DNA of 53,616 nucleotides from Sulfuricurvum sp. Lineage in GTDB: Bacteria; Campylobacterota; Campylobacteria; Campylobacterales; Sulfurimonadaceae. The DNA lies in NCBI RefSeq assembly GCF_028712165.1, contig NZ_JAQTQR010000008.1, positions 1 to 53,616 on the forward strand. Reading direction: 5' to 3'. The notes below the pieces were generated by a model. That model did not search any database, was not told where the DNA came from, and saw nothing but the letters and a program-made list of their open reading frames with translations. Shown piece after piece: positions 39,944 to 53,616 of this stretch (the first letter of the stretch is position 1; each line of letters starts with the position of its first letter). The position numbers and the translations under genes are program-made.

Positions 39944-40731
39944 AACTCTTTAGCATCTTTGGTGATCCGGTAAATCATTCACGCTCACCGCTGATGCATA
40001 ACAGTGTCTTTAAAACACTGGGAGTCAGTGCGTGCTATTCACGTACTCATCTCACCGACGGCTCGCAATTACGAAATGTTTTTGAAGCCAAAAAACTCAG
40101 TGGTGCCAACGTAACCGTCCCGCACAAAGAGGCGGCTTACGCACAATGCGATGAAGTGCGCGGGATTGCCAAAACGATCAAAGCCGTCAATACTCTCGTC
40201 TATGAAAAAGGGAAACTTATCGGCTATAACACCGATGCAGACGGTTTTATGAGTGCAATCCAGTCGTTCGGTCCTATCAAAAATGCATTGATTTTAGGCG
40301 GAGGAGGAACAGCACGTGCGCTCTCCATCGCATTACGTCAAGGTGAAATTACCCCGACTGTCCTCAACCGCTCATCCGGTCGGTTGGACTTTTTTATCCA
40401 AGAAGGGATAGAAGCATACTGCTGGAATGGTTTTACCGCGGACGATTATGATCTGATCATCAACACCACTTCGGCAGGACTCAGCGATGATGAATTACCG
40501 ATCCCAAGACCGCTGCTTATAGAACTCCTATCCCGTTCAAAAGGGGCGGTCGATGTTATCTACGGTAAAGAGACCCCGTTTTTACGCGAAATAAAAATCA
40601 GCGGCCTTCCGTACAAAGACGGTTCGGACATGCTTTTAGCACAGGGCGTGTTAGCGTCCTACCTCTTTCTCGGCGGGGAATTTTCCCTCAAAACCATCGA
40701 AGTGCCTATGCAGCACAGTTTTAGCCTGTAA
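39940..40731 (+). CDS. aroE: Shikimate dehydrogenase
   Basis: 263 residues. Substrate-binding motif NHSRSPLMHN, ANVTVPHKEAAYAQCDE with the catalytic Lys, GYNTDADGFM with the Asp, the NADPH loop GGGGTARALSIAL, and the C-terminal DGSDMLLAQGVLASYLFLGG. It reduces 3-dehydroshikimate to shikimate with NADPH. The same gene follows the SPOR gene in Campylobacter, where trpE is not in between. Overlaps with trpE (four bases) and modE (one base) indicate co-translation. Confidence 0.95.
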   Translation: MKLFSIFGDPVNHSRSPLMHNSVFKTLGVSACYSRTHLTDGSQLRNVFEAKKLSGANVTVPHKEAAYAQCDEVRGIAKTIKAVNTLVYEKGKLIGYNTDADGFMSAIQSFGPIKNALILGGGGTARALSIALRQGEITPTVLNRSSGRLDFFIQEGIEAYCWNGFTADDYDLIINTTSAGLSDDELPIPRPLLIELLSRSKGAVDVIYGKETPFLREIKISGLPYKDGSDMLLAQGVLASYLFLGGEFSLKTIEVPMQHSFSL

Positions 40732-41507
40732 TGAAGATCGACGGACGTTTTTGGCTCACCAAAAATGGGCAAAGCTTTTTAGGAACCGGACGGATAGAGC
40801 TGCTCGAGCGTATCGATAAGATCGGATCGATCCACGCTGCAGCCAAAGAGATGAAAATGAGCTACAAGGCAGCATGGGAGCGTATTAACGGTATGAATGC
40901 TCTCGCCGATCAGCCTCTCATCGAACGGACAACCGGAGGCAAAGGGGGCGGAGGGACAAAACTCACCCCCTATGCGAGAGAACTGATCGCGACATTCCAC
41001 CGTTTCAACGAGCTTCACCGCCAGTTCATCGACCGATTCTCAGAAGCGGGAAATGATCCCGAACGTCTGGCACGAATCCTGAGCCGTACATTCCTCACCA
41101 CCAGTGCACGTAATCAACTCCCGAGTGTTCTCAAAGAGATTCAAACAAACGGCCTGCACTCTACCCTCACACTCGCCCTCAGCGGTTCAGATGTCATGCG
41201 CTCAACCATTACCGCCAAATCAGTTCTTAACATGGGTCTTACGGTAGGATGCGATACCTACGCGATTATCAAATCAAGCGATATCCATGTCGTCTCCACT
41301 CCGCCCTCTTCCGATACCGAAGATAATGTCCTCGCCGGTACCGTTGAAACCCTCGAAACTTCGGGAGACAATATCGAAATCGGCCTGCGCCTAAACGGAG
41401 GCACACTCCTCATCGCCCTCGAAAAACAAGATGCATTGCAAAAGTTAAAAGTTGGCACCACTGCTTACGCCATTATTTCGCCGTTGCATATTATTATTGG
41501 ATTGTAA
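40731..41507 (+). CDS. modE: Molybdate-responsive repressor ModE, full length with two Mop domains
   Basis: 258 residues. The N-terminal ~105 residues are the LysR-like winged helix-turn-helix of ModE (IDKIGSIHAAAKEMKMSYKA, WERINGMNALADQPLIERTT, GGKGGGGTKLTPYA). The rest is a tandem Mop/TOBE pair: ARNQLPSVLKEIQTNGLHST with STITAKSVLNMGLTVGC, and GTVETLETSGDNIEIGLRL ending in YAIISPLHIIIGL. These domains bind molybdate or tungstate and switch the dimer to its DNA-binding form. The gene is the last of the long operon and shares one base with aroE. Its likely targets are the CGTTATAT sites at 42951, 43028, 43875, 46000 and 52834. In Campylobacter jejuni ModE lacks the metal domain, so this is the complete type. 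Confidence 0.93.
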   Translation: MKIDGRFWLTKNGQSFLGTGRIELLERIDKIGSIHAAAKEMKMSYKAAWERINGMNALADQPLIERTTGGKGGGGTKLTPYARELIATFHRFNELHRQFIDRFSEAGNDPERLARILSRTFLTTSARNQLPSVLKEIQTNGLHSTLTLALSGSDVMRSTITAKSVLNMGLTVGCDTYAIIKSSDIHVVSTPPSSDTEDNVLAGTVETLETSGDNIEIGLRLNGGTLLIALEKQDALQKLKVGTTAYAIISPLHIIIGL

Positions 41508-41513
41508 TACCCG

Positions 41514-41544
41514 CCCGTCATTCCCGACTTGATCGGGAATCCAG
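41514..41544 (+). repeat. Short palindromic repeat, copy 1 (CCCGTCATTCCCGACTTGAT type)
   Basis: ATTCCCGA-CTTGA-TCGGGAAT is a perfect 8-bp palindrome with a 5-base loop, followed by CCAGTTTTTC, so it could terminate the modE operon seven bases after its stop. A reversed copy lies at 41979-42008. Units of this type (GTCATTCCCG...CGGGAATCCAG) are dispersed in many bacterial genomes. Confidence 0.8.
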
Positions 41545-41641
41545 TTTTTCTAATCAAATTATTAAAAAATGCAAAATAGTTAATAACTTTTGGCAATTAT
41601 ATTTGTTAAAATTGTCTTTCGATCAATACAAAGGAAATCAA

Positions 41642-41946
41642 ATGAATAAAATCATTGAGCTGGAAACAATCTTAGAACACAATGGGTATAACGAATTGCT
41701 AGAAGCCTGTAAAGCCATAGTTGGATCAGATGGTACAGAAATAGGGATGTCTAAATCTATTAATGAAGATGGAATGAAAGAAGCGATGGGTACACTAAAA
41801 GTATATTGGCTTAAACAAAAATTACGATACTTGAACATAAAGAAGTCTTTGAACGCGAATGTAAAAATCTTGGATTAATCCCAGATAAATTTATTAAAGA
41901 TATATATGACGATGTAATGAAAATCGAAGCATTTTTAGACTCCTAA
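41642..41946 (+). pseudogene. Small orphan gene split by a -1 frameshift
   Basis: The ATG at 41642 has AAAGGA six bases upstream and reads 78 codons to a stop at 41878. From the A run at about 41816-41820 (CAAAAATTACG), the -1 frame continues with plausible coding sequence (ITILEHKEVFERECKNLGLI, then PDKFIKDIYDDVMKIEAFLDS; shown in parts) to TAA at 41944. One added A would restore a ~101-residue protein; alternatively the run allows slippage. The upstream part (MNKIIELETILEHNGYNELL) matches nothing I know. AT-richer than neighbours. It lies between two inverted copies of a palindromic repeat, which suggests acquired DNA. A real mutation, a sequencing slip or programmed slippage cannot be told apart here. 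Confidence 0.65.
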
Positions 41947-41970
41947 TCTCCCCTCCTTAAATGGAGATTT
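41945..41970 (+). terminator. Terminator-like hairpin after the frameshifted gene
   Basis: AATCTCC and GGAGATT pair around an 11-base loop, directly at the stop codon of the restored frame. This placement supports 41944-41946 as the original end of the gene. Confidence 0.5.
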
Positions 41971-41978
41971 AGCTTATA

Positions 41979-42008
41979 GCTGGATTCCCAATCTAGTCGG
42001 GAATAACA
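41979..42008 (-). repeat. Short palindromic repeat, copy 2 (inverted)
   Basis: On the minus strand it reads GTTATTCCCGACTAGATTGG then GAATCCAGC, matching copy 1 at 41514-41544 with a few changes. The two copies flank the frameshifted gene in opposite orientation. Confidence 0.8.
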
Positions 42009-42020
42009 AACACCTTTTTC

Positions 42021-42083
42021 CCCGTTCGTGGTGAGCTAGTCGAACCATGAATATGCACCCTTCGACAAGCTCAGGGCGAACGG
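42021..42083 (-). repeat. Dispersed palindromic repeat, copy 2 (inverted)
   Basis: On the minus strand it begins CCGTTCGCCCTGAGCTTGTC and ends GAGCTCACCACGAACGG-like (here CTAGCTCACCACGAACGGG), matching copy 1 at 30650-30707, with a few extra bases in the loop. It can form a long imperfect hairpin. Confidence 0.8.
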
Positions 42084-42134
42084 AATCAATCTTCCTTTAT
42101 TCACTTTTGAACAAGAATCTACAATCGTTTTAGC

Positions 42135-42770
42135 TTAACAAGTCGCAACACTAAATGCACTTCCTATAGCACTTGCAATAAAATTTATGATTTCTGTTGT
42201 TACTCTCGCTTTGTTAAAAACGATATCGCATAAGATTGCAAAAACTAGCCCGAGATAGGCTAGATACCCAAATCCGACATAATCATTGTAGAGTATTGTA
42301 TAAAACCAATTTTGCTCAAATAGATAAAAATACGAGCTAATGGCTGTGGAGAAAAATATGAGTGTGCCGGGTAAAAACAAATGTTCAGTGGCTTGCGGTT
42401 TCAAAAATGATACCCAGAATAATAAGATAAACACGAGCGAGTTTACACCAAGAAATATTCTAATATCCATTGTTAATTTCTCAACAATCTCATTATATTT
42501 TGATTGCGTAAAATCTGCCAGTTTATCTTTAGCCTTTTCTAGTTTTAGACGTAAATCTTTGGAAGAATTGACAAAGATTTTTTCAACAGTTTTATATTGA
42601 GATGAATTAATAAAATCGACTCTTTCATTTAGTTCGCTCTGTAGTTTCCACTCAATAAAATCTTTACCCGATTTTTCAATGATTGTGGGATCAGAAAAGG
42701 TAAAAAGGAATAACGGAAGAAAAAGCAAGATTCCAAATAGTCCAAGGCCTCTAAGCAAATATATTTTCAA
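42135..42770 (-). CDS. Orphan integral membrane protein
   Basis: 211 residues. Segment 1 (LLRGLGLFGILLFLPLFLFTF) is a signal anchor or first helix; then about 75 charged, helical residues (NSSKDLRLKLEKAKDKLADF) likely face the periplasm or form a coiled coil; three to four further helices follow (FLGVNSLVFILLFWVSFL, LIFFSTAISSYFYLF, YLAYLGLVFAILCDIVF and IINFIASAIGSAFSVAT). No family is recognised. AT-rich, on the strand opposite to its neighbours, and flanked by dispersed repeats on its 3' side, so it may be acquired. Function unknown. Confidence 0.6.
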   Translation of the reverse strand: MKIYLLRGLGLFGILLFLPLFLFTFSDPTIIEKSGKDFIEWKLQSELNERVDFINSSQYKTVEKIFVNSSKDLRLKLEKAKDKLADFTQSKYNEIVEKLTMDIRIFLGVNSLVFILLFWVSFLKPQATEHLFLPGTLIFFSTAISSYFYLFEQNWFYTILYNDYVGFGYLAYLGLVFAILCDIVFNKARVTTEIINFIASAIGSAFSVATC

Positions 42771-42943
42771 AAATCTTCCTTTATATATTTTCAGTTGTCA
42801 ATATTCTACTCAGAAAACAGAATTGAGATAAAAAATAAAAGCAATATATTAACGATATATAATACTACAAAATGCCTTATCACAATATGATACTTTTATA
42901 ACATATTTTGATCAACTGTCGGACAAGTTTAAGACTTTTTTCT

Positions 42944-42949
42944 TATAAT
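42944..42949 (+). promoter_or_regulatory. -10 promoter element of modA
   Basis: TATAAT directly followed, one base later, by a ModE-like operator, placing the operator over the transcription start. Confidence 0.65.
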
Positions 42950-42950
42950 T

Positions 42951-42974
42951 CGTTATATCTTACAAAACACAACG
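42951..42974 (+). promoter_or_regulatory. ModE operator-like site, modA promoter
   Basis: CGTTATAT - 8 bases - ACACAACG. The E. coli modA operator has the same half-sites and spacing (CGTTATAT-N8-ACATAACG), so the right half differs by one base. Its position at the expected transcription start suits repression by ModE. Confidence 0.75.
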
Positions 42975-43027: not shown

Positions 43028-43051
43028 CGTTATATCAAAACAGATACTAAG
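43028..43051 (+). promoter_or_regulatory. Second ModE-like site before modA
   Basis: CGTTATAT - CAAAACAG - ATACTAAG. The left half is perfect and the right half weak. It overlaps the start of the modA ribosome site, so it might be a secondary operator or chance. Confidence 0.5.
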
Positions 43052-43059
43052 GAGTTTCC

Positions 43060-43815
43060 ATGAAACTGATTAAAATTGTATTGGCATCCCTCGCGTTTGC
43101 CTCCGCACTCGCTGCGCAAACGATTACTGTTGCCGCTGCAGCCAATATGAAATATGCTGTTGCCGACATCGCTAAAGCATTTACTGAAGAGAGCGGAATC
43201 GGTGTCAAAATCATCACCGGTGCTTCCGGAAAACTTACACAGCAAATCATGAGCGGTGCACCGTATGATGCGTTTCTCTCTGCCGATGTCGAATTTCCGA
43301 CAAAACTTTCTCAAGGCGGGTTTACAACGACTCCGGCTCAAGTGTATGCGTACGGAACACTTATCCTCTGGAGCGATACCGGTGCTGATCTCTCTAAAGG
43401 TGTTGCGGTTGTTACAGATCCATCCGTTAAAAAGATTGCTATTGCCAACCCTAAAACCGCCCCTTACGGTACAGAAGCCATGAACACGATGAAATTTTAC
43501 AAAGTTGCCGATGCTGTCGCATCCAAACTCGTCACAGCGGAATCCATCTCCCAAGTAGGAAGCTATGTAACAACAAAAGCGGTCGATATCGGGTTTATGG
43601 CAAAATCCATCGTCCTCTCACCTGAGATGAAAAATGTCGGTAAATGGGTCGAAGTCGATCCTAAATCGTATAACACAATCGATCAGGCGATGGTAGGGCT
43701 CAAAAACGGTACCCCTGAAAATCAGATCGCCGCTAAAAAATTCCTCCGATTTATGTCCTCTGCCAAAGCATTAGAAATTTTAAAAGCGAGCGGATACGGT
43801 TTACCGAAAAAATAA
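43060..43815 (+). CDS. modA: Periplasmic molybdate-binding protein
   Basis: 251 residues with a signal peptide (LIKIVLASLAFASALAAQ). The mature protein starts TITVAAAANMKYAVADIAKAF, and has GASGKLTQQIMSGAPYDAFLSADVEFP (shown in two parts: GASGKLTQQI, APYDAFLSAD), IANPKTAPYGTEAMNTMKF and FLRFMSSAKALEILKASGYG, the ModA pattern including the Ser and Asn-Pro oxyanion contacts. It binds molybdate and tungstate and delivers them to ModBC; these are not adjacent. AAGGAG is the ribosome site. A -10 box and two ModE-like sites precede it. Confidence 0.93.
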   Translation: MKLIKIVLASLAFASALAAQTITVAAAANMKYAVADIAKAFTEESGIGVKIITGASGKLTQQIMSGAPYDAFLSADVEFPTKLSQGGFTTTPAQVYAYGTLILWSDTGADLSKGVAVVTDPSVKKIAIANPKTAPYGTEAMNTMKFYKVADAVASKLVTAESISQVGSYVTTKAVDIGFMAKSIVLSPEMKNVGKWVEVDPKSYNTIDQAMVGLKNGTPENQIAAKKFLRFMSSAKALEILKASGYGLPKK

Positions 43816-43874: not shown

Positions 43875-43898
43875 CGTTATATCAAAAAACATATAAGG
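43875..43898 (+). promoter_or_regulatory. ModE operator-like site before the porin gene
   Basis: CGTTATAT - CAAAAAAC - ATATAAGG: one mismatch from a perfect inverted repeat. It ends on the ribosome site (AAGGAT) of the porin gene at 43906. Confidence 0.7.
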
Positions 43899-43905
43899 AT
43901 ATCAA

Positions 43906-45276
43906 ATGACAAAACTCAGTATTACTACAGCACTTATTTTAGGAACTTGTCTTATTGCCCAAGCGGCAGATGATTTGGCATCGGCATTTAAAGAGGGGAA
44001 ACTCGACGGCCGTCTCAGAGCCCAATATTTTGTGACCGATTGGGATGATGACGCCAAATACAGCGCAACCGGATTTGCTGTAGGGGGAAGTTTGATCTAT
44101 AAAACGGCACCGTTGTACGGTTTTAGTTTCGGAACGGGTCTGTATACCACACAGAATCCGGGCGGATGGACAGAAGCGGAGGATGGAAAATATGCCAATA
44201 CCTCAAAAGACCTTTTTGCTCGCGGTCCAGGATCGGCGTACAGCTATGGTGACGGATACGCCGTTTTAGCGCAAGCATATCTGCAATACGATATCGCCAA
44301 AAGCAAAATCAGAGCGGGTCGTATGCTCGTGACTAACCCATGGATGTCTCCTAACGATACCAAAATGATCCCGATCGCCTATGAGGGGATTGATTTTGTT
44401 TCCAAAGATATTCTCAACACAACTATACAGTTGGACTATATTGACAAGATAAAAGAACGGGGAATGGATTATTTCGGAAGCATGGCCGAAACGCTCGATA
44501 CGCCGACAAAAATCAGCAACTATTATGATACCGGATACGGTACCGCTACGGTACGGCACGGAGATGCTCCCAATGTCAGCATTGTCGGCGTCACGAATAA
44601 ATCGATTGATAATCTCGAGCTCCAAGGATGGGTGATGCATTGGCCGGATTTGATCGATCATCTCCGTCTCGAAGCCAATTACGCACTGGAAGCGGGCGAT
44701 GTTATCCTCGGCTTCGGCGGTTTGTACATGAAACAATACGATCAAGGAGCCGGAGATATTATCCTGCCAAAAGCAAACAATTACGATAGCGATAACAGTG
44801 TAGACACCTATCTCTATGCACTGCGGGCAACCGCAAATTATCGTGCGGCAAAATTCCTGCTGGCAACATCCCATACGGACGGCGGCGGGGATATGATCGC
44901 TCCTTGGCGCGGATTCCCGACACAGGGCTATACACGCAGTATGACGCAAACCGATTGGAATGCGAATACAACCGCCTATAAAGCAGAGTTTGATTATGAC
45001 TGTGATGCCATCGTGTCGGGCGTAAGTACAATGCTCAGCTACGCCTATTATAACCGTGACCCGAGTAAAAAGCCGTACCAAAGTATGACCGACAGAGCCT
45101 ACGGAAACGGTGATACCCGTCAATGGAACTTTGATGTCGTGTATAAACTTTCCGGCAGCTGGAAAGGGACGGAACTCAAAGCCCGTCTGATGGATCAAAA
45201 CAATGAAAAATCAACGTTGGCAACGGCTGAAACTTCTAACCGCGAAATGCGTTTGGAAGCGAACTACCGATTTTAA
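43906..45276 (+). CDS. OprD-type outer membrane porin
   Basis: 456 residues with a signal peptide (ITTALILGTCLIAQA). AFKEGKLDGRLRAQYFVTDW at the mature start is the first strand pattern of OprD-family porins in this phylum, and alternating aromatic strands run to a final EANYRF, ending in Phe as outer-membrane barrels do. OprD relatives admit specific small solutes. The ModE-like site just upstream and its place between modA and the TonB genes suggest passage of molybdate or tungstate or their chelates, an inference. No lipid anchor is seen. The signature of the pore loops is not readable. Confidence 0.8.
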   Translation: MTKLSITTALILGTCLIAQAADDLASAFKEGKLDGRLRAQYFVTDWDDDAKYSATGFAVGGSLIYKTAPLYGFSFGTGLYTTQNPGGWTEAEDGKYANTSKDLFARGPGSAYSYGDGYAVLAQAYLQYDIAKSKIRAGRMLVTNPWMSPNDTKMIPIAYEGIDFVSKDILNTTIQLDYIDKIKERGMDYFGSMAETLDTPTKISNYYDTGYGTATVRHGDAPNVSIVGVTNKSIDNLELQGWVMHWPDLIDHLRLEANYALEAGDVILGFGGLYMKQYDQGAGDIILPKANNYDSDNSVDTYLYALRATANYRAAKFLLATSHTDGGGDMIAPWRGFPTQGYTRSMTQTDWNANTTAYKAEFDYDCDAIVSGVSTMLSYAYYNRDPSKKPYQSMTDRAYGNGDTRQWNFDVVYKLSGSWKGTELKARLMDQNNEKSTLATAETSNREMRLEANYRF

Positions 45277-45399: not shown

Positions 45400-45978
45400 A
45401 TGAATCTCTTAATGTCTGATGGAAAACCGGTATCGATGTTTAGTGCCTGCGGAACCAAACCGTTCGAACCTGCCAGTATGACACCCAATACCGCCGAAGC
45501 CAAAATCGATTTTGTCTACCCTGTAGTTCCTTTTCCGACAACTAAGCTCTATCAGCAATGGGGAGAAGAAAATATCCGTAAAATGGTCCGCTACCATCAT
45601 GGGTTATTACGTAAAAGTGTCATCGGTAATCTCTTCCCAGCGGATGATACAATGTTTGCCTTTGCGACGGAAAAAACGGCAGACTTTTTTGTAGAGGCAT
45701 TGGGAGGAGAAAAACATTACACGCCTGTGCATGGTCATCCTGCATTACGAATGCGCCATTTTCATATCACTATCGATGAAAAAGGACGAGAGATCTGGCT
45801 AATGATGTATAAAAAAACGATCAATGATCTGGAAATGCCGTCTGAGTGTATCGAAGAGTTCTGGAACTGGATCGAGCCGCTTTCGATTCGAATGATCAAC
45901 CGACGAACGACCGTCGCACCGATCGAACGTCATCCGTATATATCGATATGGAATAAAATCAAAATTGAGGAAAATTAA
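45400..45978 (+). CDS. Truncated hemoglobin-like globin
   Basis: 192 residues. The core is a 2-on-2 globin: LYQQWGEENIRKMVRYHHGL, then NLFPADDTMFAF, and GHPALRMRHFHITIDEKGRE, where His120 in RMRH is the expected proximal heme ligand, then WLMMYKKTINDLEMP. It is longer than the usual ~125-140 residues, with about 45 extra residues at the N-terminus containing a Cys. Without a signal peptide it should be cytosolic. Truncated globins bind O2 or NO; its place ahead of tonB in a metal-uptake operon is unusual. It starts with AAAGGA seven bases upstream and is separated from tonB by one base. Confidence 0.8.
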   Translation: MNLLMSDGKPVSMFSACGTKPFEPASMTPNTAEAKIDFVYPVVPFPTTKLYQQWGEENIRKMVRYHHGLLRKSVIGNLFPADDTMFAFATEKTADFFVEALGGEKHYTPVHGHPALRMRHFHITIDEKGREIWLMMYKKTINDLEMPSECIEEFWNWIEPLSIRMINRRTTVAPIERHPYISIWNKIKIEEN

Positions 45979-45979
45979 G

Positions 45980-46753
45980 ATGTATTTTTTAAGCTCAATC
46001 GTTATATCAGAAAAGATACAACATAAGAATTTCTTATTAAAATTTAAATCATTCGGCGCTTCATTCGCTGTTCACAGTGCGGTATTAGCCGGAATTTTGT
46101 ATTTTATGACAACCCATCCGATCCTGATGGAACCGGAGGAAGAGAGAGTCATCATCTCCCTCTCGGAGTTCACTTCTACCTCCGGTGATCGAAATGTAAT
46201 GGAACATTCGCTCATCCAGAAACAAACACCGAAAACCCTTACGACGCCTAAAGCGAAAAGTACACCGAAAGAAGTGCATCCGACCCTAAAAACGACCCCT
46301 GAGAGGATACCGTCATTAACTCCTTCGGTGTCCTCTGAGGCGTCCGCGCCTCTAGCTCCACCTGCTCCAGTGTTATCGACTCCGCCATCATCACTCATTG
46401 ATTCTCCTCATGAGAGTGTTTCCTCCAAATCTGAAAACGAATTACCAAGAAACCTAGTTTCCAGCAACGAAATCGGCGGAGCGGCATTGGGAAATATACG
46501 GGCTATGATCGAACATGCAATCACCTACCCCGCAATCGCTCGTAAACTTCGTATCGAGGGTATTGTGGTGGTATCGTTTGTACTCAAACCTAACGGAATC
46601 GTAGAAGCCGCAAAAATAATCACGACGAGCGGCAGTACTCTTCTGGACACCAAAGCGATTCAAACGATTCTCAGCCTCAGCGGTGATTACCCCGCATTGG
46701 GAAAGACCTTTGAACTGAGTATCCCCATCGCATTTAACTTACACAAATCCTAA
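45980..46753 (+). CDS. TonB-like energy transducer
   Basis: 257 residues from ATG 45980, one base after the globin stop, so translation is probably coupled. One membrane anchor lies near residues 25-45 (FAVHSAVLAGILYFM), followed by a Pro/Thr/Lys/Ser-rich spacer and a C-terminal TonB domain: YPAIARKLRIEGIVVVSFVL, then SGSTLLDTKAIQTIL and the end ELSIPIAFNL. TonB carries ion-gradient energy from ExbB-ExbD to outer-membrane receptors; exbB and exbD are not in this window. A ModE-like site lies inside the first codons (46000). Its neighbours make it the likely partner of the receptors at 47782 and 52885. Confidence 0.88.
   Translation: MYFLSSIVISEKIQHKNFLLKFKSFGASFAVHSAVLAGILYFMTTHPILMEPEEERVIISLSEFTSTSGDRNVMEHSLIQKQTPKTLTTPKAKSTPKEVHPTLKTTPERIPSLTPSVSSEASAPLAPPAPVLSTPPSSLIDSPHESVSSKSENELPRNLVSSNEIGGAALGNIRAMIEHAITYPAIARKLRIEGIVVVSFVLKPNGIVEAAKIITTSGSTLLDTKAIQTILSLSGDYPALGKTFELSIPIAFNLHKS
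46000..46023 (+). promoter_or_regulatory. ModE operator-like site inside the 5' end of tonB
   Basis: CGTTATAT - CAGAAAAG - ATACAACA, two mismatches in the right half. It lies about 20 bases inside the tonB ORF, so it may be an operator for an internal promoter, a sign that tonB starts later, or chance. Confidence 0.5.
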
Positions 46754-46762
46754 AGGAATCTT

Positions 46763-47782
46763 ATGAATACGTTTCTGAAAATCCTCTTCTTATCGGTGAT
46801 CGTTCTCGCTGCACACGCGAAAACTGTGACGGATATGGACGGGCATCCCGCCATACTTCCGGATCAAACCGATCGAGTCTTCGGTTCATCTCCGCCGATG
46901 AACTATCTCATCTATGCGCTCAATCCAAATAAAATGATTGGTTTGAACTTTGCTGCAAAAAACGCCAATAATGGGGCCAATGAAAACTTCCTCAATCAAA
47001 AATTCCTTTCCCTTCCGGTAATCGGATCGTTTCACGGCGGCGGTCAAAGTATCAATCTCGAAACGCTGATGGCCTACAAACCGCAACTGGTTTTACTCTG
47101 GCAAGACGATATGATGGTGCAAACCGTACAGCGTGAAATCGAAAAAACCCATCTGCCGACTTTTATGATCCCGTTCCGTGAAGTTAACGATATGCCTCGC
47201 GCTTTTCGTCTGGCCGGTGCTGCAATCGGAGAGAGCAAACAGGCAAATATCCTAGCCAACTACTCTCAAAAAATAATCGATGAAGTCCATACCAGCGTCT
47301 CCAAAGCCAAACCGACACGCTACTACTACGCAGAAGGAACCGATGGACTTTCTACCGAATGCGATACCTCGTTTCATGTCGAAGCGCTTAATTTTGCCGG
47401 AGGCGAGAACGTCCATAAATGCCAACAAAGCGGTCTACTCGGCCTGGAAAAAATCAATTTTGAAAAACTTCTTACCTACAATCCGGATGTCATTATTGTC
47501 CAAAACAGAGCTGTCTATAACGACCTGATAGAGGATTCGCTCTGGAAAAATCTGCGCGCTGTTAAATCCGGCCGTATTTATCTCGTCCCTATCCAGCCGT
47601 TTAACTGGATCGACCGGCCGCCGTCGTTTATGCGGGTGATCGGAATCCAATGGCTGGCTCATCTGTTCCACCCAAAAGAGTACAAAGCCGACCTGAGTGT
47701 CCGAACAAAAGAGTTCTATGACCTTTTCTTACATGTAAAACTCAGCGATGAACAAGTCAAAAATCTATTAGGAGCCAATTAA
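46763..47782 (+). CDS. TroA/BtuF-type periplasmic binding protein (MolA-like), first copy
   Basis: 339 residues with a signal peptide (ILFLSVIVLAAHA). It starts KTVTDMDGHPAILPDQTDRV, like metal-chelate binding proteins of type II ABC importers. Two lobes are joined by a long helix, as suggested by LLLWQDD-like VLLWQDDMMVQTVQ and KPTRYYYAEGTDGLSTECDT (shown partly), with ECDTSFHVEALNFAGG as a likely ligand-facing segment, and VQNRAV, RPPSFMRVIGIQWLAHLFHP near the end. It is paralogous to the protein at 51829 (SPP near the start, GQ-N-E motif, ECD-SFH, RPPS-MR). The ligand may be molybdate or tungstate, as in Haemophilus MolA, but nickel, cobalamin or heme cannot be excluded. It shares one base with the next gene. 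Confidence 0.82.
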   Translation: MNTFLKILFLSVIVLAAHAKTVTDMDGHPAILPDQTDRVFGSSPPMNYLIYALNPNKMIGLNFAAKNANNGANENFLNQKFLSLPVIGSFHGGGQSINLETLMAYKPQLVLLWQDDMMVQTVQREIEKTHLPTFMIPFREVNDMPRAFRLAGAAIGESKQANILANYSQKIIDEVHTSVSKAKPTRYYYAEGTDGLSTECDTSFHVEALNFAGGENVHKCQQSGLLGLEKINFEKLLTYNPDVIIVQNRAVYNDLIEDSLWKNLRAVKSGRIYLVPIQPFNWIDRPPSFMRVIGIQWLAHLFHPKEYKADLSVRTKEFYDLFLHVKLSDEQVKNLLGAN

Positions 47783-50022
47783 TGAAACTCTCACCTATCC
47801 TTCTCTCTCTCGCCGCATGTGCGATACTCGCCGCAGACCCGCTGGGGATCGAGCGAATCGTTATTACTGACACCGTCGATGATGGTGATGCAATGATACT
47901 CGATAGCAATCAAAGCGGTGCAAATCAATCATTCGGTACCAAAAGTATCGCCACCCTCTCGACTCAGGCGAATATGAATCCCTACAGCGTTATCGCCTAT
48001 TCGCCGTCAGTCAACTTTACCCCTGTCGATCAGGCCGGATCAAACGAACCTTCCTATCATGATCCTATCCGTATACGCGGAAAAAGCCAAAGCGGTCCCG
48101 GCGGTGTCTATATGATCGACGGTATGCCGATCTCCAGCAATCCGGGAGGGGGAAAACAACTCGTTGATATGGAAAATGTCAGTTCGATCGATCTGCTCAA
48201 AGGGTATCTCCCAGCCGATAAAAACCTCGGCTTCTCCAGCCTCATCGGTAAAGTCGATCTGAATCTCCTGAGTGCAAAATCGAAAGCCGGAGCCGAAGTG
48301 TCCCAATCATTTGGTTCGGATAATTTCCAACGTACTTTTGTACGTTTCGATTCGGGTAAAATCGGCGATGTTGCGGTATTCGGTTCTTTCTCCCATCTCT
48401 CTAATGACAAAACCAAAGGCGAAGGCGATCTCAAACGTCTCAACGGTACTCTCGGCCTGACCTACACCCCTACAAATACGTTCAAAGCCAAAGTAACCGC
48501 TATCCGTAACTCAGACGATCACCACAACTACTATAACCTCTCATACGCCGAAGCGAATAATTTAGGGGCTAATTTCAACAAAGATTTTGCCATGACTCAA
48601 CCGAGCGCATCCAATGATGTCAACTATTACGACTGGAACAAACAAAGTTTCCTGACTACGGCTCTTTTGGGAGAATTCGAATACAAGCCGACTACGAATG
48701 ATGCAATCACGATCAAACCGTATTATAAAAAAGATGAGGGAGACTATTGGTTCTCCAAATTCGATACAACTGCCGCCAAACAGCGTGTTATGAACTGGCG
48801 AATGGAGCATGACCTCTACGGTGCAACCGCAGCGTACGATCATGAGTTTTCCGAAGCGCTGAAAACTAAAATCGGGTATTGGTACCACAAGCAGCTCCCT
48901 CCCGGGCCTCCGAGCGATCAAATCAAATACAGAGTGGTTAACGGTGCTTTGGTATTTGATGGCTATGCGGTTCTCGCCGATAACGACTATCATACGCTCC
49001 AAGCACCGTTTGCCCAAATCAGCGGTACGATCGACCGTTTTACGTATGTTGCCGGTGCACAATACCAAACGTTTAAACTCGGCTCGCTTAAAAGCCATAC
49101 CAACGGTAATCAAACATCTGCAGCAAATCCAGACTATGATGCCGCAATCGCATCGACTGCCATCGATCCGTGGGCAAGCGTAGATGCTAAAACTTTTAAT
49201 ACGTTTATTCCGTCGCTCTACCTCGGATATACGATTTCTCCATCGACCATGGCATATCTCGATTATTCGCGTACCTATGGGTTCGACGTTAACCTTTTCC
49301 CGACCTATATTTCCAATCGTGCCAGTTTTGTAGCTCAAAACGTCACGTTGCAACAGCTATGGGACAAACTCGATTTGGAACTCTCCGACAATATCGATCT
49401 CGGAGTTAAAACAACCCTCGGAGGACTCACTCTCAATCCGAGCCTATATGTCTCGTTCGTACAAAACAAACAAGCCAATATCTATGATCCCTCATTCGGT
49501 GTCAATTATCCTGCCAATGTCGGAGATGCACTTGGATACGGTGCGGAATTCTCGGCATACGGTCCGATCAGCGAAGATTTGGAATTGTTGCTAGGTCTCT
49601 CGTACAATCGCTATCAATTCACCCAAAACTTCCAAAGCGGAGCTTCTTCAACCGTTGAAACCGACGGTAAACAGCTCCCTGACGCTCCGAAATACATGGC
49701 GAAAGCGGCGCTTTCATATCACCTGGGAGACTGGACGCTCACCCCGAGTGCCCGCTACACCTCCAGTCGATGGGGAGATGTTGCCAATACCCAAAAGATA
49801 GATGCCTTTACCCTTGTTGATTTCGACGCAGCATACCGTATCGCACAGTTTATGGGATCTCGTAACGCCCTTTTCCGTCTGACAGCTACCAATCTGACAA
49901 ACGAAAAATACATCGCTACGATCAATGCCGCCGATAACTTCTTGGCGGCAACCGGCACGGCAAGTACCTACAATACGGGTGCACCGTTCGGACTTTATGG
50001 CAGCATCAATCTGAAGTTTTAA
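47782..50022 (+). CDS. TonB-dependent outer membrane receptor, first copy
   Basis: 746 residues with a signal peptide (LSPILLSLAACAILAA). A TonB box-like ERIVITDT follows, then the plug: RIRGKSQSGPGGVYMIDGMP, VDMENVSSIDLLKGYLPADK and GKVDLNLLSAKSK. The rest is the 22-strand barrel, ending in ...LYGSINLKF with a terminal Phe. It takes up a scarce metal or chelate across the outer membrane using TonB. The plug is clearly homologous to the partial receptor at 52885 (MENVS, KG, SFG-DNF-RTF, R-DSGK). Overlaps the binding-protein gene by one base. Confidence 0.92.
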   Translation: MKLSPILLSLAACAILAADPLGIERIVITDTVDDGDAMILDSNQSGANQSFGTKSIATLSTQANMNPYSVIAYSPSVNFTPVDQAGSNEPSYHDPIRIRGKSQSGPGGVYMIDGMPISSNPGGGKQLVDMENVSSIDLLKGYLPADKNLGFSSLIGKVDLNLLSAKSKAGAEVSQSFGSDNFQRTFVRFDSGKIGDVAVFGSFSHLSNDKTKGEGDLKRLNGTLGLTYTPTNTFKAKVTAIRNSDDHHNYYNLSYAEANNLGANFNKDFAMTQPSASNDVNYYDWNKQSFLTTALLGEFEYKPTTNDAITIKPYYKKDEGDYWFSKFDTTAAKQRVMNWRMEHDLYGATAAYDHEFSEALKTKIGYWYHKQLPPGPPSDQIKYRVVNGALVFDGYAVLADNDYHTLQAPFAQISGTIDRFTYVAGAQYQTFKLGSLKSHTNGNQTSAANPDYDAAIASTAIDPWASVDAKTFNTFIPSLYLGYTISPSTMAYLDYSRTYGFDVNLFPTYISNRASFVAQNVTLQQLWDKLDLELSDNIDLGVKTTLGGLTLNPSLYVSFVQNKQANIYDPSFGVNYPANVGDALGYGAEFSAYGPISEDLELLLGLSYNRYQFTQNFQSGASSTVETDGKQLPDAPKYMAKAALSYHLGDWTLTPSARYTSSRWGDVANTQKIDAFTLVDFDAAYRIAQFMGSRNALFRLTATNLTNEKYIATINAADNFLAATGTASTYNTGAPFGLYGSINLKF

Positions 50023-50027
50023 GGGCT

Positions 50028-51050
50028 ATGATGAAAAATATCAAACCGATCAGTTGGATAATCGGCTCGACGCTCCTTTTGATCGTTGTTGCTACACTAT
50101 CTCTACTCTGGGGGCAATATCCGATCACTCTCGATACGTTGATCAGCTATCTCCAATTTAAAGCATTCGGAGGGGCTGGAAACGATACCTACACGATGCT
50201 CGATAACATCATCTTGCAAATCCGTCTGCCGCGCGTTCTGCTGGCCATCCTCATAGGATCTGCCCTGGCTACATCGGGCGCCGCATTTCAGGCGATGTTC
50301 GTCAATCCCCTGGTCTCTCCCGGAATCTTGGGAGTACTCGCGGGTGCATCATTCGGTGCGGCGATGGGAATGCTCATCTCGGATCAATGGTTTGTCGTCC
50401 AATTACTCGCCTTTGCATTCGGTTTTGTCGCCGTCGGGGTCGCAGTACTCATCGGCACGATGGTAACCAACTCCCGATCCACCGTGATGCTGGTACTCGG
50501 AGGCGTCATCAGCAGTGCCCTTTTCACTTCGATGCTCTCAATCATCAAATACCTCGCCGATCCGTACAGTACCCTTCCCGCTATCGTCTACTGGCTGATG
50601 GGAAGTCTGACCATGGCGGATCTGCACGGTGTATTGCTCATCTGTGTTCCGATGCTCGCCAGTGTCATCGGACTGATCGTTTTAGGGAAATATTTCGATC
50701 TCATGAGTTTGGGAGATGAAGAGGCAAAAGCGTTGGGGATCAATGTTACGATGGTTCGGCTGGGGGCCATTATTCTGGCGACGATCGCAAGCTCTCTCTC
50801 AGTCGTCATGGCAGGGATAATCGGGTGGATCGGTCTTATCATCCCCCATATCATCCGTATGGCGGTTGGCCCTTCGCACCGTTTGCTGATGCCCCTCTCG
50901 GCAATAGTGGGCGGAGCATTTTTGCTCCTCGCCGATACGATTTCACGACTGGCATTCAGCGTCGAAGTCCCGATCGGGATTCTCACTTCGCTTATCGGTA
51001 TCCCCGTCTTTATCATCGTACTTAAAAACGCGAGGGCAGCATGGAACTAA
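50028..51050 (+). CDS. FecCD/BtuC-type ABC importer permease (MolB-like)
   Basis: 340 residues with about ten membrane segments, the BtuC fold. Signature parts are LRLPRVLLAILIGSALATSG-like (here IRLPRVLLAILIGSALATSG), GAAFQAMFVNPLVSPGILGV, LLGGVISSALF-like VLGGVISSALFTSM, YWLMGSLTMADLHG, LGDEEAKALGINVTMVRL and the coupling helix GWIGLIIPHIIRM. It forms the channel for the binding protein's ligand. ATG 50028 or 50031 are both possible; AAGGG lies just upstream, making 50031 better spaced. It overlaps the ATPase gene by ten bases. Confidence 0.93.
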   Translation: MMKNIKPISWIIGSTLLLIVVATLSLLWGQYPITLDTLISYLQFKAFGGAGNDTYTMLDNIILQIRLPRVLLAILIGSALATSGAAFQAMFVNPLVSPGILGVLAGASFGAAMGMLISDQWFVVQLLAFAFGFVAVGVAVLIGTMVTNSRSTVMLVLGGVISSALFTSMLSIIKYLADPYSTLPAIVYWLMGSLTMADLHGVLLICVPMLASVIGLIVLGKYFDLMSLGDEEAKALGINVTMVRLGAIILATIASSLSVVMAGIIGWIGLIIPHIIRMAVGPSHRLLMPLSAIVGGAFLLLADTISRLAFSVEVPIGILTSLIGIPVFIIVLKNARAAWN

Positions 51051-51832
51051 AACCAATCATCACGGTCAATGACCTTCATTTTTCCTATCCAAAGCGCCCT
51101 GTGTTAGAGGGGATCGATTTTACCCTCCGCCGCGGCGAAGTAGTAAGCCTGTTGGGACCGAACGGCTGCGGCAAAAGTACCCTGATTCGTCTCATCCTCA
51201 AGCTTATACATGCTTCGCAGGGCGAAATATGGCTCAATGAAAAAACCCTGCATCGCTATTCACACCGTGAGATAGCAGAACATATCGCCTATATTCCGCA
51301 GTATAACAACGTCCCATTCAATTACAGCGTAATAGAAATGGTCATCATGGGTCGCATCTCCAAACTCGGATTTTTCGCCGCCCCATCAGCATCTGACTAT
51401 ACGATTGCCCATGAAGCATTGGAGAGGGTCGGGATTTCTGATTTGGCATCCCGTCCTTTCGGTCAGCTCAGCGGCGGACAAAAACAGATGGTGCTTCTCG
51501 CCCGCGCACTTACCCAAGGGGTCGATACCTTTATTATGGATGAGCCGGTATCGGGTCTGGATTACGGCAACCAAATCCGTCTTTTGGAACTGATCGTCTC
51601 ACTCAGCTCACAGGGCTACACGTTTCTCAAAACAACCCATTACCCCGATCATGCCCTGCTGGTCTCCAGCCGTGTCGCAGTCATGAACGGCGGTAAAATC
51701 ATCGCCGACGGTCTGCCTGAGGAGGTCATCACCCCTGAAATGATCCGTAGCGTCTACGGAATCGAAGCCGACCTCATCGTCCACGATACCCACATCCGCT
51801 GTCTTCCTATTTTCAATAAAGGAACCCTATGA
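51041..51832 (+). CDS. ABC importer ATPase, FecE/BtuD-type (MolC-like)
   Basis: 263 residues. Walker A GPNGCGKSTL, Q-loop YIPQYNNVPFNYS, signature LSGGQKQMVLLARAL, Walker B FIMDEPVSGLD and the switch His in TTHYPDHALL are all present. Two copies drive the permease encoded immediately upstream. It overlaps the permease by ten bases and the next binding-protein gene by four (ATGA). Confidence 0.95.
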   Translation: MELKPIITVNDLHFSYPKRPVLEGIDFTLRRGEVVSLLGPNGCGKSTLIRLILKLIHASQGEIWLNEKTLHRYSHREIAEHIAYIPQYNNVPFNYSVIEMVIMGRISKLGFFAAPSASDYTIAHEALERVGISDLASRPFGQLSGGQKQMVLLARALTQGVDTFIMDEPVSGLDYGNQIRLLELIVSLSSQGYTFLKTTHYPDHALLVSSRVAVMNGGKIIADGLPEEVITPEMIRSVYGIEADLIVHDTHIRCLPIFNKGTL

Positions 51833-52806
51833 AACTTTTATCTCTCTTCATTTTCCTATTAATATTTTCTAATATTATTGAAGCGCGGAGTATTACCGAT
51901 GATTTCGGCCGTGTAGTTACCGTACCCGATAAAATCACCAAAATTTATTCTGTATCGCCCCCTATCACCATCAGTGTAACGGCATTTGATCCCTCTCTTG
52001 TTGCGGCACTAAACTTTCCGTTCAAAGAGGATCAAAAACCCTACGTCGGTGTTGCCGCATCCAAACCGGTAGCAGGTGGGTATTTCGGTCAAGGACAAAC
52101 CCCTAATTTCGAAAACATAGCCGCAATCAAACCCGATGTCATCCTGATGTGGGGGAAATCGACAGGTGCAGAGAATGAATTAAAAAAACTCTCCATGCTC
52201 GGTATTCCCGTGTTAATGGTACATAATGAATCGATCAACGACCTCGTAGGGCAATTTGAACTTTTAGGAAAACTCACCGGAAATACAAAACGCGCTTCCG
52301 AACTGATGCACTATACCAAAGAGACGTTGGGGCTTATCCAATCACTGCAAGCCAAAGTGAATGCCCGAAAAGATGTCCGTTATTACTTCGCCGAAAGTCT
52401 GGACGGATTTGCCAGCGAATGCGACGGGTCGTTTCACCTCGAACCGTTCACCTACAGCGGAGCCAAAAATGCTCTCAACTGTAAAATGTCTTCCAACTAC
52501 GGGATGGAAAAAATCTCGATGGAAACGATCCTACTTGCCGATCCCGATGTTATCGTAGCGATGGAGGGGGCATTTGCATCCTCAGTAAAAAGCAATCCGC
52601 AATGGCAAAGCCTCAGAGCCGTTAAAACAGGACACGTGCTCACCGTCCCTACCGTACCGTTTAACTATATTAGCCGTCCACCCTCGCTTATGCGGCTGAT
52701 GGGAATACGATGGCTTATCCACTCGTTTTATCCCGATCTGATCAAACCGATCGATCAAGAGGAAAAACGGTTTATTAAACTCTTCTTCCCCCAATATAAA
52801 CACTAA
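51829..52806 (+). CDS. TroA/BtuF-type periplasmic binding protein (MolA-like), second copy
   Basis: 325 residues with a signal peptide (LFIFLLIFSNIIEA). After it, RSITDDFGRVVTVPDKITKI, SVSPPITISVTAFDPS and GQGQTPNFENIAAIKPDVIL (the last is within the limit) match the first copy at 46763; ECDGSFHLEPFTYSGAKNAL and RPPSLMRLMGIRWLIHSFYP are the other shared blocks. It probably feeds the same permease, perhaps with a second ligand or affinity. The ATG overlaps the ATPase stop. A ModE-like site and the second receptor follow 28 bases after its stop. Confidence 0.82.
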   Translation: MKLLSLFIFLLIFSNIIEARSITDDFGRVVTVPDKITKIYSVSPPITISVTAFDPSLVAALNFPFKEDQKPYVGVAASKPVAGGYFGQGQTPNFENIAAIKPDVILMWGKSTGAENELKKLSMLGIPVLMVHNESINDLVGQFELLGKLTGNTKRASELMHYTKETLGLIQSLQAKVNARKDVRYYFAESLDGFASECDGSFHLEPFTYSGAKNALNCKMSSNYGMEKISMETILLADPDVIVAMEGAFASSVKSNPQWQSLRAVKTGHVLTVPTVPFNYISRPPSLMRLMGIRWLIHSFYPDLIKPIDQEEKRFIKLFFPQYKH

Positions 52807-52833
52807 CAGGGAGGAGAAGTTTTTTTTACAAAA

Positions 52834-52857
52834 CGTTATATCAAATATGATATATAG
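52834..52857 (+). promoter_or_regulatory. ModE operator-like site before the second receptor
   Basis: CGTTATAT - CAAATATG - ATATATAG: left half perfect, right half with two mismatches to the inverted repeat. It lies 27 bases before the receptor ATG in an AT-rich promoter-like stretch. Confidence 0.65.
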
Positions 52858-52884
52858 AATAATAAAAACTTAAGGATTACTATC

Positions 52885-53616
52885 ATGAATCACAACGTAA
52901 AATCAAATTCTAATTTTATTAGAATAAGTTGTATAGCATCAGCCTTGCTATTACCATTTTATAGCATCATGGCTAATGATACAAACGCATCTAAATCTTA
53001 CACTCTAGAGAAAATAGAAGCAACTTACGAGGAACAAGACAATTCTATATATGCTAAAGAGCCTGATAACGCTAAAAGCACCAATACATTGAGTAAAAAA
53101 GCACTCAATACAATCGGTGGCCCGGCTCAAACAAATTACTATAAAGCGATTGACATACTTCCAGGTGTTAATGTTCAAACATCCGATGCTCTTGGAATAT
53201 CTAATGGTCAGAATATCAAAATACGTGGAAAAAGTGCTTTTCATATTGGCAGGACGGTAGAAGACCTTCCGCTAACAGGTATTGTTGGGACAAATGGTAT
53301 GGGTGGCGGAGAACTTTTTGATATGGAAAATGTTAGTGAGCTAAATGTTTACAAGGGTGCAATAGCTTCCGATAAAGGTTTTTCTCTATCAACATCTACA
53401 GGTGTAGTTAACGCAAATCTCCTCTCACCATCAGATAATCTAGGATTTTCAATCAAACAAAGTTTCGGAACGGATAATTTTAGACGAACTTTTGGTAGGG
53501 TTGATAGCGGGAAGCTTTCAACCGATAGTTCATTTTTTCTCTCCTATTCAGATACAGCTGGTGATAAATGGAAAGGTGAAGGTGGAGCACCTGATGGAAA
53601 GCACAATGTAAACTTC
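52885..53616 (+). CDS. TonB-dependent outer membrane receptor, second copy, partial
   Basis: The first 244 residues are in the window; the gene continues past its end. TAAGGAT gives the ribosome site before ATG 52885. A signal peptide (CIASALLLPFYSIMA) precedes the plug: TLEKIEAT as a TonB box-like start, IDILPGVNVQTSDA, NIKIRGKSAF, LFDMENVSELNVYKGAIASD, TGVVNANLLSPS, and QSFGTDNFRRTFGRVDSGK. These align with the receptor at 47782, so it is a paralogue. It is clearly AT-richer than its neighbours, which suggests separate acquisition. It should take up a related ligand, under ModE-type control. Confidence 0.88.
   Translation, partial: MNHNVKSNSNFIRISCIASALLLPFYSIMANDTNASKSYTLEKIEATYEEQDNSIYAKEPDNAKSTNTLSKKALNTIGGPAQTNYYKAIDILPGVNVQTSDALGISNGQNIKIRGKSAFHIGRTVEDLPLTGIVGTNGMGGGELFDMENVSELNVYKGAIASDKGFSLSTSTGVVNANLLSPSDNLGFSIKQSFGTDNFRRTFGRVDSGKLSTDSSFFLSYSDTAGDKWKGEGGAPDGKHNVNF

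Follow-up and report, generated by a model that had tools for sequence, protein, structure and literature searches.

MolBC-A of Haemophilus influenzae (HI1470-1472) is a FecCD-type ATP-binding cassette (ABC) importer of molybdate and tungstate. In Azotobacter vinelandii, according to the matched passages of PMC9542535, ModE represses a molybdate transport operon when molybdenum is abundant, and three TonB-siderophore-receptor genes lie in VnfA1-dependent operons with putative ABC components, which are active without molybdenum and vanadium. Organic molybdenum complexes are reported, in an extract of PMC3440940, to be available for uptake by a nitrogen fixer. Here a gene cluster from Sulfuricurvum sp. 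is described, in which one importer of the FecCD type is accompanied by TonB-dependent receptors and a molybdate-responsive regulator. Its main part lies on contig NZ_JAQTQR010000008.1, which was analysed over its whole length (contig C15, 53616 bases, hereafter the window) and belongs to a genome assembly of 2.72 Mb in 130 contigs with a completeness of 99.94%.

This cluster is quite likely a ModE-controlled, TonB-dependent, MolBC-like acquisition system for molybdenum or tungsten, whose several receptor/binder modules probably serve different complexes of these metals. Good evidence for its molybdenum theme comes from modE, modA, ModE-type boxes and a conserved linkage to modABC and modD. 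The cluster is real and conserved. Its parts are ordinary; what is unusual is that they are combined under ModE control, with dependence on TonB and with many receptors for a single MolBC-like pump. No description of a ModE-controlled TonB-dependent molybdenum importer was found among the matches listed from the open-licence literature, as far as their matched passages go.

One importer with six binding proteins

An architecture of the iron-siderophore type is present in the window: a TonB-dependent outer-membrane receptor (TBDT1) with plug and barrel, TonB, a periplasmic solute-binding protein (SBP1), a FecCD permease and an ATPase. The initial annotation had described a duplicated binding protein and a duplicated receptor around a single permease and a single ATPase. 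Both duplications were found in their places, since SBP1 and SBP2 are 34% identical over 309 aligned positions (BLASTP, E 4e-69) and the N-termini of TBDT1 and TBDT2 are 36% identical over 198 positions (E 1e-28). The permease is indeed single, being the sole PF01032 match in the whole genome assembly (n = 1), and so is the ATPase. The word "duplicated" is nevertheless too low. Six SBP1-like proteins, SBP1 included, were found when the genome was searched with SBP1, and a search with TBDT1 gave five matches including TBDT1, two of which are contig-end pieces; TBDT2 itself is incomplete, its barrel being cut off by the end of the contig. The TonB-receptor genes number about six (TBDT1, TBDT2, TBDT4, TBDT5, TBDT_E and TBDT6). 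Thus, six binding proteins and about six receptor genes accompany one importer.

The permease of the importer is of the FecCD and not of the ModB type; the sole ModB match over the cut-off in this genome is located on a second contig, C49. Among solved chains the permease is closest to MolB (2nq2, HI1471; E 3.2e-60), followed by FhuB (7.1e-47). The SBP profile hits 4pag and 4ovk and then MolA (3psa, 5.5e-35). In a fold comparison based on a model of SBP1 (predicted local distance difference test, pLDDT, 86.3), the Z scores were 40.5 for 4pag, 30.0 for 4hn9 and 28.2 for 4ovk, three structure entries that name no ligand, and 26.9 for MolA. The model of TBDT1 was poor (pLDDT 59.0). In 19 sequences of the SBP1, SBP2 and SBP5 proteins, the residues E199, C200, S203, H205, C220, R285 and R291 are invariant.

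The phylogeny of 31 binding proteins, built from SBP open reading frames (ORFs) of more than 280 aa, contains a branch (100/99) that parts SBP1, SBP2 and SBP5 from SBP3, SBP4 and SBP6. Within it SBP2 is the sister of SBP5 (100/100) and not of SBP1. The receptor tree covers ORFs of more than 600 aa, apart from the TBDT5 and TBDT_E rows, together with two contig-end pieces; TBDT2 pairs there with TBDT6 (SH-aLRT, an approximate likelihood-ratio test, 92, with long-branch warnings). The kinship expected of the two pairs is therefore borne out for the binding proteins, which fall into one well-supported group, but the two receptors stand on separate branches. The split of SBP1 and SBP2 is old, since SBP2 occurs across at least two families (5 of the 12 related loci considered below).

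The truncated receptor at the end of the window could be followed further. Contig C49 terminates within the C-terminal part of a TBDT (L007:13350-13997). Inward from that end, SBP3 comes first, with a flavin monooxygenase of the luciferase-like kind and a globin behind it; TBDT4, SBP4, TBDT5 and SBP5 are next. There follow a methyltransferase gene, the second monooxygenase, TBDT_E, one more methyltransferase, and modD. After an interval with other ORFs, a small gene resembling TOBE precedes modB and modC, and farther along lie a Mop protein and the third of the globins. In locus L054, from the same genus, a 753-aa receptor matches the N-terminal piece of TBDT2 with 89% and the C-terminal piece from C49 with 99%. 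Behind it stand SBP3 (96%) and the monooxygenase (98%), and the receptor/SBP3 pair adjoins modE. Locus L055, of another relative in the genus, contains TBDT1, permease, ATPase, SBP2, a box (3 mismatches), TBDT2, SBP3 and monooxygenase as one contiguous series. On the strength of these two loci the ends of C15 and C49 most likely belong to one TBDT2 gene, with SBP3 next in line, whereas SBP2 forms a binder of its own, coupled to the ATPase. A further receptor/binder pair, TBDT6-SBP6, is located on contig C76.

Several accompanying genes deserve mention. The gene modD (L031:12798-13661; quinolinate phosphoribosyltransferase-like) belongs to the same cluster, and in L042 and L048 it directly follows the importer ATPase. 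The small gene directly upstream of modB (L031:10982-11383) has a weak Mop match. Three related bacterial-type globins occur with the molybdenum clusters (window 45400-45978, L007:10692-11306 and L031:4404-4934), the third directly preceded by a ModE-type palindrome. By family, nothing specific can be read from the monooxygenases and methyltransferases. One of them has a weak match to NtaA/DmoA (5.4e-08), which is reminiscent of chelate-degrading enzymes and no more than a lead.

ModE-type boxes and conservation of the cluster

The modE product was recognized by PRK10676 (E 1.1e-44), by ModE_repress (95.4 bits) and by Mop (69.5 bits, cut-off 55). The box used for the search was the palindrome CGNTATAT-N8-ATATANCG with 16 specified bases, a variant derived from the window itself. 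In the 53.6 kb window, four positions score at least 14/16, at modA (distal), the porin gene, tonB and TBDT2 (Table 1). The target of the tonB site is uncertain, as the box sits inside the first codons of the gene. A stricter pattern gave five sites (10 matches over both strands) against 0.25 expected. In 12 related loci (237 kb), boxes with no more than two mismatches in the 16 bases occur at 26 sites against 0.03 in Markov sequence, with at least one per locus. Genome-wide, a shorter pattern is matched 17 times over both strands and its reversed control 3 times. Outside the window, C49 contributes sites at a globin and at TBDT5 as well as ahead of mop; on C76 the receptor TBDT6 is preceded, at a distance of about 80 bases, by a box with one mismatch. 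The remaining hits are unexplained or due to chance; an exact match on C89 within a polysaccharide-flippase-like ORF looks like chance.

Table 1. Features of the importer cluster and ModE-type boxes in the window
Feature	Coordinates	Strand	Remarks
modE, molybdate-responsive regulator	40731..41507	+	LysR-type helix-turn-helix (HTH_1) and TOBE/Mop domains
ModE-type box, distal, upstream of modA	42951..42974		14/16 specified bases
ModE-type box, proximal, just upstream of modA	43028..43051		3 mismatches in 16 specified bases
modA, molybdate-binding protein, type I system	43060..43815	+	TIGR01256, 163.8 bits vs cut-off 62.5
ModE-type box upstream of porin gene	43875..43898		15/16, best match in window
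OprD-family porin	43906..45276	+	PF03573, E 4.7e-16
Bacterial-type globin	45400..45978	+	PF01152, E 2.2e-13; recurs in related clusters
tonB, energy-coupling protein of the cluster	45980..46753	+	PF03544, E 1.5e-14
ModE-type box within first codons of tonB ORF	46000..46023		14/16; similar site in L041, L044, L047
SBP1, periplasmic binding protein	46763..47782	+	Pfam Peripla_BP_2; nearest solved structure 4pag
TBDT1, TonB-dependent outer-membrane receptor	47782..50022	+	Pfam Plug and TonB_dep_Rec_b-barrel
FecCD-type permease	50028..51050	+	PF01032; best solved match MolB (HI1471)
ATPase of importer	51041..51832	+	
SBP2, second binding protein	51829..52806	+	Peripla_BP_2; overlaps ATPase stop
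ModE-type box upstream of TBDT2	52834..52857		14/16
TBDT2, second TonB receptor, N-terminal 244 aa	52885..53616	+	Truncated at contig end 53616

The related loci (L037-L048) were found with SBP1; L039 is cut by a contig end, and other stretches stop soon past the importer. All 12 contain SBP1, TBDT1, permease and ATPase. In 8/12 modE adjoins the importer, and tonB stands directly upstream of SBP1 in 8/12. An LLM2-type monooxygenase is present in eight (one short ORF and one cut by the locus end) and modD in four. Eight further loci were added, seven of them chosen for a nearby ModE gene, so that their modE provides no new count, and one (L064, group f11) chosen blind. The seven also have boxes (at most 3 mismatches) and, in most cases, other parts of the cluster. 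In L061, a distant relative, a single run was found: modE-modA-TOBE-modB-modC-[box]-TBDT-monooxygenase-SBP-permease-ATPase-methyltransferase. L047 and L062 contain modABC together with the importer.

In a sample of 298 genomes of the phylum, an SBP1 relative at 1e-60 is found in 42. Of these, 28 were evaluated against the ModE matches listed: 21 have an SBP1-like gene at most 10 kb from a ModE gene, and in the other seven the genes are far apart on one contig (four genomes) or on different contigs (three). In the 41 genomes of the genus, 10 of which have the permease, modB lies 7.6-16.4 kb from it in all seven members with both genes on one contig. Of the other three, two, including the genome of the window, have modB on a different contig and one has no modB over the cut-off. 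An association with nitrogenase is suggestive only: nifD over the cut-off was found in 10/10 genomes with the permease and in 17/31 others (Fisher p 0.0075, relatedness not controlled).

Some further features were seen in the window and in related loci. The modE-modA gap (41500-42950, about 1.5 kb) contains a short ORF and an opposite-strand membrane-protein ORF, with inverted-repeat-like stretches near 41520 and 41985. This spacer may be an insertion because modE and modA are less than 200 bases apart in L038. Close to modE in two loci are proteins about 600 aa long (L057:13977-15758 and L063:4024-5832) that match SBP in one part only and could be fusions; they adjoin methyltransferase-like genes.

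Proposed function and alternative explanations

We infer the following scheme for the ligand, the direction of regulation, the pairing of receptors with binders and the sharing of the pump. At low cellular molybdate, ModE would leave its boxes and the cluster would be expressed. Several outer-membrane receptors, powered by the TonB of the cluster, would each carry one form of the metal to the periplasm, and these forms would most likely be different complexes. The usual ligands of TonB receptors are scarce or too large for porins. Complexes are likelier than free oxyanions because a porin and ModA are already encoded in the cluster. SBP1, SBP2 and SBP3-SBP6 would then hand their ligands over to a common MolBC-like permease/ATPase of the FecCD type, a sharing suggested by the permease being the only one of its kind found in the genome. 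ModA together with ModBC would deal with free molybdate in parallel. More speculatively, the flavin monooxygenase, the methyltransferase and ModD may have a part in making the ligand, altering it or setting it free.

An organic ligand is hinted at by the monooxygenase, methyltransferase and globin genes, which recur. A molybdophore economy could be imagined, in which several TonB receptors and SBPs import organically complexed molybdenum (or tungsten) via one MolBC-like pump. The ligand would be made, or degraded so as to free the metal, by products of the same ModE-controlled cluster: the flavin monooxygenase, the methyltransferases, ModD and the globin. This extended version is tentative and rather doubtful.

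A number of observations weigh against the proposed molybdenum or tungsten system or narrow it. The fold of SBP1 does not settle the ligand, because the Z score of MolA is close to those of the nickel-binding CeuE (25.5) and of YiuA with iron and DHB-Arg-Ser (25.1). The scores of ModE are under the curated cut-offs of PRK10676 (369) and ModE_repress (98.5). The 12 loci tested for boxes were fetched as SBP1 relatives and are mutually non-independent, the motif was taken from the window, and 3 of the 26 sites fall within ORFs. With the published ModE consensus of E. coli, at most 4 mismatches being allowed, the window shows no convincing excess, with 6 sites against a shuffle mean of 3.05 and a maximum of 8. 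The TBDT2-SBP3 pair of L054 is situated on a small contig without the permease. L064 contains a TBDT-SBP-permease-ATPase locus, with no modE and no box (at most 3 mismatches) in 20 kb. The count of SBP1-ModE distances covers 28 of the 42 SBP-bearing genomes, with 14 genomes of group f11 outside it, and may miss a second ModE copy in a genome that it covers. Finally, the permease is patchy within the genus (10/41 genomes) and modB is over the cut-off in 35/41, so the MolBC-like system is not the sole route of molybdenum. Separately, the locus of L064 (8214-18704) may be an instance of this machinery that serves a different ligand or answers to a different regulator.

The initial annotation had supposed that the system captures two ligand forms, and in the simplest version molybdate would enter via one receptor/SBP pair and tungstate via the other. 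Two SBPs and two receptors around one importer agree with this, as does the binding of both oxyanions by MolA, stated in the matched passage of PMC4031551. The molybdenum theme of that proposal stood, while the number two proved too simple for a genome that has six SBPs and genes for about six TonB receptors and in which TBDT2 is followed by SBP3 and not by SBP2, judging by L054 and L055. SBP2 was also not seen in 7 of the 12 importer-bearing stretches, some of which are short on that side, and porins pass free oxyanions, a porin gene and modA being part of the cluster. Such a two-ligand scheme is accordingly unlikely. Of the examples that had been offered, two chelates would be the better one and molybdate/tungstate the weaker, as free oxyanions should not need TonB receptors. 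A split of tungstate and molybdate between SBP1 and SBP2 is unsupported by copy number and arrangement.

If ModE boxes indicate only that molybdenum may be the signal, the cluster could instead be a ModE-repressed importer of a substitute metal, such as vanadium, or iron for alternative enzymes. The A. vinelandii receptor operons activated without molybdenum and vanadium (matched passages of PMC9542535) would provide a precedent. This is improbable, however, for genes intermixed with modABC, Mop and modD, whose permease and SBP have MolB and MolA as relatives. An ordinary importer of siderophore, haem, cobalamin or nickel, placed by chance beside the mod genes, would have the typical FecCD/TBDT architecture. 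It would also suit the similar fold matches of SBP1 to nickel-binding CeuE, YiuA and MolA, the globin genes alongside and the lack of ModE linkage in L064; besides, such nutrients might have to use the sole FecCD permease found in the genome. The ModE-type boxes at promoters and the conserved mod linkage make this explanation very unlikely. No Fur-like box above 11/19, a score met at 292 positions of the window, was found at the cluster promoters with the Fur consensus used. Rfam at the gathering threshold gave a tRNA only, therefore no cobalamin or molybdenum cofactor (Moco) riboswitch is present.

Comparison with known systems

If the proposed molybdenum or tungsten system is real, the cluster supplies candidate genes for every step of organic-molybdenum uptake in Campylobacterota. 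A related binding protein with a solved structure, 4PAG from Sulfurospirillum deleyianum, allows an immediate ligand test. It is 38% identical to SBP1 and has the same Cys/His motif and the highest fold score; unlike SBP1 with its proposed role, it is named solely as a solute-binding protein, with no ligand given. The SBP1-like genes of the genomes of group f20, perhaps the Sulfurospirillum group, adjoin modE.

As in TonB-dependent uptake of siderophores and metallophores, a complete set of TBDT, TonB, SBP, FecCD permease and ATPase is gathered in one cluster. Unlike siderophore uptake, it has ModE-type boxes, no Fur-like box found at its promoters, and many receptors and SBPs per permease. 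The metal-starvation operons of A. vinelandii and molybdophore uptake are similar in that TBDT genes occur with ABC genes and are activated without molybdenum and vanadium, and in that organic molybdenum is usable, as far as the matched passages of the sources go. The control there belongs to VnfA1, and the likeness is one of description.

The closest counterpart is MolBC-A of H. influenzae. In both cases a type II importer exists alongside ModABC; the permease of the cluster is closest to MolB among solved chains and its SBPs are homologous to MolA. Differing from MolA, the family has invariant R285, R291, C200 and C220 without a matching residue at the aligned MolA positions. To the scheme of MolBC-A this cluster adds TonB receptors, a TonB and several SBPs.

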